Shown here: in pieces, positions 1-1,553 of the stretch
How the letters are laid out: every line of letters starts with the position of its first letter
How positions within the stretch are numbered: position 1 is the stretch's first letter
From: Hyphomicrobiales bacterium
GTDB taxonomy: Bacteria; Pseudomonadota; Alphaproteobacteria; Rhizobiales; JAJFHB01
Length of the DNA: 58,946 bases
Direction: 5' to 3'
Assembly (NCBI GenBank): GCA_021775615.1
Contig: JAJFHL010000169.1
Coordinates: 1-58,946, forward strand
Position numbers and translations under genes: made by a program
Notes under the pieces: model-generated
Told to the model about the DNA's origin: nothing
The model's database searches: none
The model's input: the letters and a program-made list of their open reading frames with translations, nothing else

Positions 1-71
1 CCTGACATGCAGGCCAGGAGCCGTAAGCTGGACATGGTTTTCCAATCTGTGAACTAACGTTGCAAACAGCG

Positions 72-91
72 GCATCCGGGTTTGCGGATGC
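72..91 (-). terminator. Candidate terminator hairpin after the His-rich gene
   Basis: A perfect 7-bp inverted repeat (GCATCCG / CGGATGC, 6-nt loop) lies about 18 nt past the stop of the leftmost minus-strand gene. On that strand it is followed only by a short, interrupted T-rich stretch, so intrinsic termination is plausible but weak. Nothing else recognisable lies in the first 108 bases. Confidence 0.35.
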
Positions 92-108
92 GCGGAGAAA
101 CGGGAGTT

Positions 109-522
109 TCAGAGAATGGAATTTGGTGGGGGAGTGGGTTGTGCCGGTGTTGCGCCTTCCATGGCCTTGCCAATGGAAGCTGAGAAACATGTCGTCAGAT
201 GCAGCCGCTTGACACCCTTTACACCGTTGGGTTCGACGCCGGCGAAGCCCATCGTGCAGTCGCCGAACGCCGCCGCCAGATCCGGCGCGGGTCCGTTCTG
301 GTTTTCAGTTGAATGATGAAGATGATGAGGTGTGCCGACGTGGTTTTCGGATGCCCTGTCGCTGGCCATGCCAATGGTGTGAGTATGCCCGGTATCCGCC
401 GCATGGTGATGCGCATGCTGCGAAGCCATTTTGTCGACCACGCAGTGTCCCGCCACGCCCAGCGTTTGTCCTAGCAGAAACACCGCTGCAACAACAAAGG
501 TGATGGCATTTTGCATCTTCAT
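109..522 (-). CDS. Small exported His-rich protein, putative copper-binding
   Basis: A 137-residue protein with a hydrophobic N-terminal signal sequence (about residues 3-22, ending near VAGH). The predicted mature part starts with a His-rich stretch (motifs AHHH, HTHT, PHHLHH) and has Cys residues near residues 27, 88 and 107. Such His/Met/Cys-rich periplasmic proteins commonly bind copper or related soft metals. It lies about 100 nt downstream of the DUF4396 gene on the same strand, so both probably use the CueR-type promoter at 1104-1134. The start is uncertain: an in-frame ATG at 567 would add 15 residues, but the ATG at 522 places the signal sequence at the N-terminus. No family name is recognised; the copper role is inferred from composition and context. 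Confidence 0.6.
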   Translation of the reverse strand: MKMQNAITFVVAAVFLLGQTLGVAGHCVVDKMASQHAHHHAADTGHTHTIGMASDRASENHVGTPHHLHHSTENQNGPAPDLAAAFGDCTMGFAGVEPNGVKGVKRLHLTTCFSASIGKAMEGATPAQPTPPPNSIL

Positions 523-623
523 CGCGGCCACTCTAGCAAAGTGCCGCGACGAGGCCAGCAGAAACATTCATCCACGACCATCGCATGGGCTTCGAAGGCG
601 CATGTTTTCTGTTGCCTCCTCAT

Positions 624-1073
624 CTAGTGACAACACGCCTTGCCCAGCGCCTTGAGACGCCAGTAGTTGTAGGGCAGGGGCGTCAGGAACCCGGCCAGCC
701 ACATAATCGGCAGGACCCACAAGGTGAGCCTGGCGCCACCGGTCACGAGCACATCGACGGTGTTCATTGCCGCTTCCATGGAGATCATGGAAATCAGCGA
801 CATGCCGCAGGCGGTCTTGAAAGCCTCCTTGAGCACCATCTGCCGTGACAGTATCACGGTCTCCAGCGCGATCGATGTCAACAGCCCGTTGATGATCGCC
901 AGCGTCATGATTGCGAGAGTCGGCCAGGGAATGCCGGTCACCTGAAAGAACGCGATCGTGCCCATGTCGCCGATCGAGCAGCCGACAAGGCACCAGAAGG
1001 TGTTCTTCGATGCCGTCACCCACGTGGGGCGGCTGGCCCAGTCCAGATCTGTAAATGTTGCGGCAACGGCCAT
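624..1073 (-). CDS. DUF4396-family membrane protein, probable copper-linked
   Basis: A 149-residue integral membrane protein with about four hydrophobic segments (roughly 25-45, 50-72, 86-110, 117-135). It matches DUF4396 in length, in the N-terminal Trp-Cys-x3-Cys-x2-Gly-Asp stretch (Cys28, Cys31, GD at 35-36), and in the C-terminal TPLPYNYWRLK motif followed by GKACCH. The third segment is rich in Met and Cys (Cys89, Met91, Met96, Met99, Met103) and the C-terminus ends Cys-Cys-His, all plausible soft-metal ligands. The gene is transcribed away from the CueR-like regulator, from a promoter whose -35 and -10 are 19 bp apart, as in MerR-activated promoters. DUF4396 has no settled function; a role in copper handling is inferred from that promoter. 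Confidence 0.75.
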   Translation of the reverse strand: MAVAATFTDLDWASRPTWVTASKNTFWCLVGCSIGDMGTIAFFQVTGIPWPTLAIMTLAIINGLLTSIALETVILSRQMVLKEAFKTACGMSLISMISMEAAMNTVDVLVTGGARLTLWVLPIMWLAGFLTPLPYNYWRLKALGKACCH

Positions 1074-1103
1074 TTCAACTTGCTCATGATGATTCTTCTG
1101 TGG

Positions 1104-1134
1104 GATATAGACCTTCCAGTAACTGGAAGGTCAA
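1104..1134 (-). promoter_or_regulatory. CueR/HmrR-type operator and promoter
   Basis: A perfect 21-bp palindrome at 1111-1131 (half sites ACCTTCCAGT and ACTGGAAGGT around a central A). On the minus strand it sits between a -35 TTGACC (plus 1129-1134) and a -10 TATATC (plus 1104-1109) separated by exactly 19 bp. This overlong spacer with the dyad inside it is the hallmark of MerR-family activated promoters, and the ACCTTCC/GGAAGGT arms match the known CueR/HmrR box. It drives the DUF4396 and His-rich genes and lies 15 bp upstream of the regulator's own ATG, which allows autoregulation. Confidence 0.9.
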
Positions 1135-1145
1135 GGAGCGATTCC

Positions 1146-1553
1146 ATGCTCAATATCGGGGAGGCGGCAAAGGCCACTGGTCTGCCGACAAAGACGGTGC
1201 GCTACTATGCCGAAATCGAGCTTGTGGTCCCAAGCGGCCGCTCCGAAAACGGGTACCGACTCTATGCGGACACGGAGCTCTCGAAGCTTACTTTTGTGCG
1301 ACGCGCTCGTGCCTTCGGTTTTTCTGTTGAAAGATGCCGCGAACTTCTGAGCCTCTACGAGGACCAGAACCGCTCCAGTGCCAATGTGAAGAGCATCGCC
1401 CTGCGGCACTTGGTGGAGATCGAGGAGAAACTGGCGGATCTGCAGAAGCTCCACGCCGAACTCTCCCATCTTGCTCAAGCCTGCCACGGCGACGCCCGGC
1501 CGGACTGCCCGATCCTGGACTCCTTCGCGGGGCCGCATTCGAGAGAAGAGTGA
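1146..1553 (+). CDS. cueR: MerR-family copper-responsive regulator (CueR/HmrR type)
   Basis: A 135-residue MerR regulator: N-terminal winged helix-turn-helix (MLNIGEAAKATGLPTKTVRYY, about residues 1-70), dimerisation helix (about 78-112) and a C-terminal metal loop Cys113-x7-Cys121 (ACHGDARPDCP). The Cys spacing matches the Cys112/Cys120 pair of CueR. Ser78 in the SANVK segment matches the Ser that marks monovalent-ion sensors; divalent sensors such as ZntR have Cys there. Cu(I), Ag(I) or Au(I) sensing is therefore expected. The ATG at 1146 was chosen because an in-frame upstream start would place the operator inside the coding region. It diverges from the DUF4396 gene across the shared operator. 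Confidence 0.9.
   Translation: MLNIGEAAKATGLPTKTVRYYAEIELVVPSGRSENGYRLYADTELSKLTFVRRARAFGFSVERCRELLSLYEDQNRSSANVKSIALRHLVEIEEKLADLQKLHAELSHLAQACHGDARPDCPILDSFAGPHSREE

Follow-up and report, generated by a model that had tools for sequence, protein, structure and literature searches.

The beginning of the window (the whole stretch of 58,946 nucleotides analyzed here, from a Hyphomicrobiales bacterium) raises the question of which gene is controlled by the CueR-type promoter located there, and whether the two genes behind it belong together. Next to the promoter lies a gene for a membrane protein of DUF4396, a Pfam family without function, followed by a gene for a small His-rich, putatively exported protein. 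A sequence-only reading had taken them as an isolated CueR-controlled pair, found instead of the usual CopA ATPase or CueO, and had derived a metal role for DUF4396 from it. The features of the locus are listed in Table 1.

Table 1. Features at the beginning of the window; positions are those of the window unless another locus is given.
Feature	Position	Strand	Basis or details
Next operon gene, 91-aa RAHYHSVMSGY protein	1-35, ATG at 35-33; L145:5530-5805 on contig C19	-	141-nt overlap, ORFs
Predicted mRNA hairpin, from the leader stop region to just before the next ATG (35-33)	40-121	-	RNA folding
His/Cys-rich ORF, putative CutF/CruR-like leader; C-terminus PAQPTPPPNSIL	109-567	-	Same-genus homologue, synteny
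DUF4396 membrane protein, 149 aa	624-1073	-	PF14342, E=3.2e-34
Promoter	1104-1134	-	-35 TTGACC 1134-1129, 19-bp spacer, -10 TATATC 1109-1104
CueR/HmrR dyad ACCTTCCAGTAACTGGAAGGT (ACCTTCCAGT-A-ACTGGAAGGT)	1111-1131	.	0 mismatches
cueR, predicted Cu(I)-responsive MerR-family regulator, divergent from DUF4396	1146-1553	+	TIGR02044

The perfect 21-bp MerR-type dyad within a 19-bp promoter spacer that had been described from the sequence was confirmed. It consists of two perfect arms of 10 bp each with a single central base between them, and the palindrome is the same as the CueR/HmrR palindrome ACCTTCCAG-(3)-CTGGAAGG (Permina et al., 2006; PMC1526738). Together with the promoter, the dyad is located between the divergent cueR and DUF4396 genes; it lies (ACCTTCCAGTTACTGGAAGGT) inside the minus-strand promoter TTGACC-19 bp-TATATC, which faces the DUF4396 gene. 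The cueR product reached 162.4 bits compared to a cut-off of 147.4 (NCBIfam TIGR02044) and carries the C-x7-C motif CHGDARPDC. Using a sigma-70 scan with a spacer of 16-18 nt, no promoter was found within positions 1-1600, which is the expected outcome since the spacer of the CueR promoter is 19 bp long. No known RNA family was identified in positions 1-2600 at E<=1.

Next to the dyad itself, the motif ACCTTCC-N7-GGAAGGT has a single further match in the window, with 3 mismatches. In the whole genome (6.26 Mb) the dyad was the sole match at 0-1 mismatch and the sole perfect site, and the matches at <=3 mismatches correspond to background (174 vs. 175 for the reversed-pattern control). The combined promoter-plus-dyad pattern was found once in the genome, which contains one DUF4396 gene, one CueR over the cut-off and three Cu-ATPases over the cut-off, all three on other contigs. 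The pattern was present at 0 of these three Cu-ATPase loci, where the best sites have at least 3 mismatches; with respect to CueR control, the statement that DUF4396 stands here instead of CopA therefore holds. The DUF4396 gene is thus the only clear predicted CueR target of its own genome.

For the analysis of conservation, species-representative genomes were scanned with the DUF4396 protein of the window, resulting in 73 relatives. A divergent CueR gene (>=45% identity, within 400 bp upstream) was identified in 36 of the 73 relatives and was absent in 37. The core box, a pattern that was shaped after the loci of the relatives had been inspected, was found in 40 and absent in 33 relatives, 33 of the 73 having both core box and divergent CueR; seven of the 73, and in addition L155 and L163, have the core box without a divergent CueR match. 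In the remainder of the same 73 loci (1,219,490 bases, both strands counted) the number of core boxes was 0. Since the pattern is post hoc, only the count with the published consensus and the test on 35 further loci are free of that bias. The published consensus alone, allowing <=3 mismatches, gave sites in 26 of the 73 relatives compared to about 0.5 expected. The core-box pattern leaves the second base of the -10 region unfixed, and 38 of the 40 core boxes have the A of the -10 TA at the 19-bp position. When the relatives were clustered at 90% identity, the box was kept in 22 of 45 clusters; single linkage at 80% resulted in 15 clusters with the box in three, the low number being due to the merging of most alphaproteobacterial members.

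The independent sample comprised all DUF4396 places over the cut-off among relatives and phylum members (35 loci, own genome and the same-genus genome G001 excluded), analyzed in 12-kb windows together with 35 control windows from the same genome set. Three core boxes were found in the sample (L155, L163 and L172), each 57-61 bp before DUF4396, and two of them precede distant type-B members that are about one third identical or less to the protein of the window. The 35 control windows contained 0 core boxes. The survey of CueR boxes near DUF4396 genes, which had been proposed as a test together with the sequence-only reading, thus left its claim unrefuted.

In 25 chosen genomes, 30 CueR-type promoters were identified, 23 of them before DUF4396 and two before a Cu-ATPase, the remaining ones preceding cytochrome c, CueR or nothing recognized. 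These genomes were hand-picked (21 from the scan for relatives, mostly boxed, and four known beforehand to carry the box), so that the rate of 23 in 30 is subject to selection bias. CueR control of the DUF4396 gene is supported on the sequence level by the cueR gene over the cut-off, the unique promoter and the conserved box, and DUF4396 is regarded as a real and conserved CueR target that has probably not been described so far. As a separate observation, four gammaproteobacterial loci (L058, L061, L062 and L071) show a skewed variant box, TTGACCTTTC...CGGCAGGTTTAG, upstream of DUF4396 (e.g., L058:4940-4970), with additional changes in L071 and without a CueR match nearby in any of the four. 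This variant is possibly the site of a different MerR-type regulator.

The DUF4396 protein matched PF14342 with 118.7 bits (gathering cut-off 27), and no match was obtained in an NCBIfam scan. Five Cys and nine Met were counted in its 149 residues, and its C-terminus is CCH. Among 78 type-A ORFs, the end is CH in 64 and CCH in six, including the protein of the window; of the others, a Cys occurs close to the end in four, and in the remaining four there is none. C28 and C32 (CxxGC), M99-E100 and N104 are invariant in the alignment. The family tree (46 rows) separates a branch of subtypes A, B and D from a branch of C and E with a support of 100/99. C28, G31, G35, P134 and N136 are nearly universal across its rows, C32 is retained outside subtype C, and M99-E100 and N104 are marks of subtypes A and B. 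On plasmids, DUF4396 was observed on one Streptomyces plasmid (31%).

The AF2 model, calculated with 58 relatives (pLDDT 81.5, pTM 0.71), contains long helices at residues 15-46, 52-76 and 81-111 and a broken pair at 120-130/133-143. Judged by eye from the charge distribution, both ends are cytosolic, which fits the N-terminal cytosolic HMA domain of the fused members described below. Using Foldseek, no match was found at E<=0.001 (best E 0.48), and the best hit in VIA was MtrC with a Z of 7.7, within the background of helical bundles. MtrC, TRIC, RNF/NQR and CcmB were considered as fold relatives (Z 5-8), were not convincing and were left uninterpreted. Since no convincing relative was found in the PDB, transport by DUF4396 receives no support from the fold.

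Several gene fusions connect DUF4396 to copper. In the archaeal loci L078, L082 and L084 an N-terminal HMA (copper-chaperone) domain is fused to DUF4396, and in L161:4827-6746 (639 aa) and L162:5748-7703 (651 aa) DUF4396 is followed by a His-rich linker and a multicopper oxidase; the L161 fusion adjoins a Cu-ATPase and a CueR-like gene. The archaeal fusion proteins belong to Thalassarchaeaceae, and in the DUF4396 part they share 62-64% identity with the bacterial protein, which suggests a transfer between the domains of life.

The flanks of the 73 relatives contain cytochrome c (17), CopC (14), CopD (14) and multicopper oxidase (6), where the seeds were partly drawn from the counted loci, L030 matching its own CopC and CopD seeds and L017 its own cytochrome seed. 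Any copper seed (CueR, CusC, cytochrome c and one L017 protein excluded) was found in the flanks of 20 of the 73 relatives, of which L030 and L082 are included only via their own seed, in six of the 35 sample loci and in one of the 35 controls. The downstream neighbors vary across the relatives, and box and DUF4396 remain together. Subtype E accounts for 18 of the 35 sampled loci and has a copper link in one of them (a neighbor at L159), so that the copper claim covers subtypes A and B, and C by fusion, and does not extend to the family as a whole. The metal role that had been proposed for DUF4396 consequently stands for this part of the family, as a role in copper handling, and its extension to all DUF4396 proteins is unsupported. 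Based on CueR control, recurring copper neighbors and fusions, DUF4396 is very probably an unrecognized copper-handling membrane protein; our best guess is that it may serve to move Cu(I) within the inner membrane.

Contig C78 starts with the window and shares an exact overlap of 141 nt with the end of contig C19. Across this overlap, the gene order on C19 continues with the 91-aa RAHYHSV protein, an outer-membrane efflux protein, a multicopper oxidase, a cupredoxin, CusF and DUF2652 (ORFs, Pfam). The same operon order, from the homologue of the His-rich gene onward, was found in the same-genus genome G001. The apparent absence of an oxidase is therefore an artefact of the contig edge. The description of DUF4396 as standing instead of CueO had to be given up, and the two genes are not an isolated pair under the promoter, as a copper-resistance operon that includes a multicopper oxidase follows on from the His-rich gene. 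The DUF2652 protein at the end of this operon (L145:835-1863, minus strand) has a similar ORF in G001. For the exported 91-aa RAHYHSVMSGY protein no Pfam match was obtained.

The true start of the His-rich ORF is likely the ATG at 522, giving 137 aa compared to 152 aa from the first ATG. The gene lies 56-101 bp downstream of DUF4396 on the same strand, with no terminator-like site on that strand. In G001 a stretch of about 560-580 bp, in which a small ORF lies on the opposite strand, separates the two genes, and this shows that they are no fixed pair. The intervening ORF (L141:2587-2766, minus strand) encodes a product of about 60 aa whose N-terminus resembles an export signal, judged by eye, and is absent from the window. 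The His-rich homologues of window and G001 share 41% identity and the common ending PAQPTPPPN, conservation being strongest in the proline tail rather than in the His spacing. A profile search of 289 genomes of the class identified homologues in the own genome and one weak match in one other genome (E 5.6e-4, in a 930-aa frame), which was not used. A MazG-like assignment of the His-rich protein (E 0.054) was far under the cut-off and was dismissed as chance.

The start of the next gene is located on the same strand 73 nt after the stop of the His-rich ORF, and in both genomes this stop and the next start lie in opposite arms of one predicted hairpin. Its z-score was -3.5 in the window and -3.7 for the homologue in G001, with 0 of 200 shuffles as stable; for a longer folded region, the values were weaker (-2.0 and -2.1). 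The ribosome binding site beside the hairpin of the window is weak, judged by eye. Distant homologues of the RAHYHSVMSGY protein were found in seven of 385 genomes of the class, several of them behind PP-tailed leaders: of the additional RAHYHSV matches (L220-L227, eight in seven genomes), five have a small His/Cys ORF with a PP tail immediately upstream (L222, L223 and L225-L227). For L222 and L223, pairing is predicted between the Pro-Pro codons and the following ribosome binding site (z -1.5 and -3.6, respectively), and in L225-L227 a strong hairpin follows the PP-tailed ORF (z -1.1 to -1.7). Most likely, judging from its sequence and context, the His-rich gene encodes a CutF/CruR-like leader of the copper-oxidase operon and not a partner of DUF4396. 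As the CutF Cys motif is absent, "CutF-like" is used as a working name for a putative member.

Building on the observed anatomy, uniqueness and conservation of the promoter, the contig continuity, the domain fusions, the neighbors and the predicted hairpin, we infer a two-layer copper-defense island, consisting of a CueR-driven DUF4396 gene and a CutF/CruR-type leader operon, and assign a probability of roughly 60% to this reading. A rise of cytosolic Cu(I) would cause CueR to untwist its own promoter with the 19-bp spacer and to switch on DUF4396. The product, predicted to be a small inner-membrane protein of four to five helices, would handle Cu(I) within the membrane and most likely pass it on from the cytosol towards the periplasm, and the path may be formed by CxxGC in the first helix, MExxMN in the third helix and the C(C)H tail. 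Downstream, the putatively secreted His/Cys-rich leader would sense periplasmic copper during its own translation; its proline-rich end may delay the ribosome and open the hairpin over the start of the next gene, by which the outer-membrane efflux protein, the multicopper oxidase, the cupredoxin and CusF would be switched on.

Other explanations were considered for DUF4396. It could act in the membrane as a copper chaperone or assembly factor instead of a transporter and deliver cytosolic Cu(I) to a neighboring multicopper oxidase, cytochrome or CopC/CopD. The multicopper oxidase fusions, with the HMA fusion at the other end, and the CopC/CopD and cytochrome c genes downstream in many relatives agree with such a role. 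However, a copper-enzyme seed in the flanks of just 20 of the 73 close relatives indicates no fixed client, and CueR-type induction suits the removal of excess copper better than assembly, so that a chaperone appears rather unlikely. An importer or scavenger, which would take up copper from the periplasm in the manner of MerT/MerP, either to detoxify it or to supply the cell, is suggested by MerT/MerTP mercury transport, where the first helix of a small multi-helix membrane protein carries a Cys pair and MerR-type control and an HMA fusion are found. DUF4396 resembles MerT/MerTP in the Cys pair, the control and the fusion, although metal and direction presumably differ. CueR activates at an excess of cytosolic Cu(I), where import would be harmful, and no cytosolic reductase-like partner was seen; import is thus considered very improbable. 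That the box serves only the autoregulation of cueR, with DUF4396 as a passenger of a conserved divergent layout, could be argued from the divergent cueR in 36 of the 73 relatives, but is hardly credible: the promoter faces DUF4396, boxed DUF4396 genes occur without a divergent CueR match (seven relatives, L155 and L163), and box and DUF4396 stay together while the downstream neighbors change.

With regard to the second gene, the His-rich protein could be an ordinary stable periplasmic copper buffer in one CueR-driven operon with DUF4396. Its position on the same strand 56-101 bp behind DUF4396, its His/Cys content and the lack of a terminator-like site fit this explanation. The gap of about 560-580 bp with the opposite-strand ORF in G001, the proline tail that is better conserved than the His spacing, the leader-type hairpin and the synteny all point the other way, and a buffer is considered improbable. 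The G001 separation and the CutF/CruR-type anatomy of the leader likewise argue against the proposal made from the sequence, in which a stable protein would bind metal in the periplasm as the partner of DUF4396.

Under the preferred reading of a two-layer island, the CueR promoter and the HMA and multicopper oxidase fusions give a Pfam family without function a specific and testable copper role, and CueR regulons in many alphaproteobacteria may center on DUF4396 rather than on CopA. The leader is likely a CutF-type sensor without the Cys motif first used for finding such leaders, which suggests that searches for this motif miss members. More tentatively, and as a wider proposal that may well turn out too far-reaching, DUF4396 of subtypes A and B could be an unrecognized family of Cu(I) membrane transporters, a non-ATPase counterpart of CopA on which CueR acts mainly or exclusively in many alphaproteobacteria, fed by HMA domains in archaea and with a sister branch hard-wired to a multicopper oxidase. 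Here it would be coupled to a CutF-type translational sensor, so that one island would read cytosolic copper through CueR and periplasmic copper through the nascent leader.

In the literature outside subscription journals, DUF4396 was found to be named only in passing, as the flank of a metal-resistance cluster (PMC7760498), and PF14342 was named nowhere. Titles and the starts of abstracts on CueR/HmrR regulons and on copper proteins of unknown function gave no description of a DUF4396 target, and DUF4396 was not found in passages of PMC4938975 and PMC6769254. The locus resembles the CueR/HmrR copper regulon (copA, cueO; PMC1526738) in the CueR-class regulator, the promoter with the 19-bp spacer and the divergent layout. 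The targets given there are P-type ATPases, a multicopper oxidase, a copper chaperone, cytochromes and glutathione S-transferase; in contrast, the target here is a DUF4396 membrane protein, which is absent from the CueR/HmrR results and discussion of that study.

The similarity of the leader to CruR/DUF2946 of Bordetella (PMC9426467) is looser. In both cases a copper operon is headed by a small ORF, putatively exported in the present case, that carries PP close to its C-terminus, whereas the leader of this study has no CxxC, no RAPP and no match to the DUF2946 profile (PF11162; none to E<=1 for the leader and none to E<=0.1 for the G001 homologue). For CutF, the filters described in PMC9973294 include PP within the last 15 residues, a size of <170 aa in the first list and of <=150 aa later, and a next same-strand gene within 1,000 nt. 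The leader has PTPPPNSIL within its last 15 residues and agrees with size and spacing, the limit of 150 aa holding only for the start at 522. A signal peptide is a further filter, and the N-terminus of the leader is hydrophobic, judged by eye. The predicted hairpin would shield the downstream start as in CutF. CxxxC, part of the first list of rules, was not found in the leader, which has three isolated Cys. Compared to CutF of the cutFOG operon in Rhodobacter capsulatus (PMC9973294), the leader is His-rich, lies behind a CueR-controlled gene and is followed by the 91-aa RAHYHSV protein, then by the efflux protein and then by the oxidase. Nevertheless, it shares with the described cutFOG system a small, putatively secreted leader rich in metal ligands, a proline-rich C-terminus, a hairpin and a multicopper oxidase in the operon.
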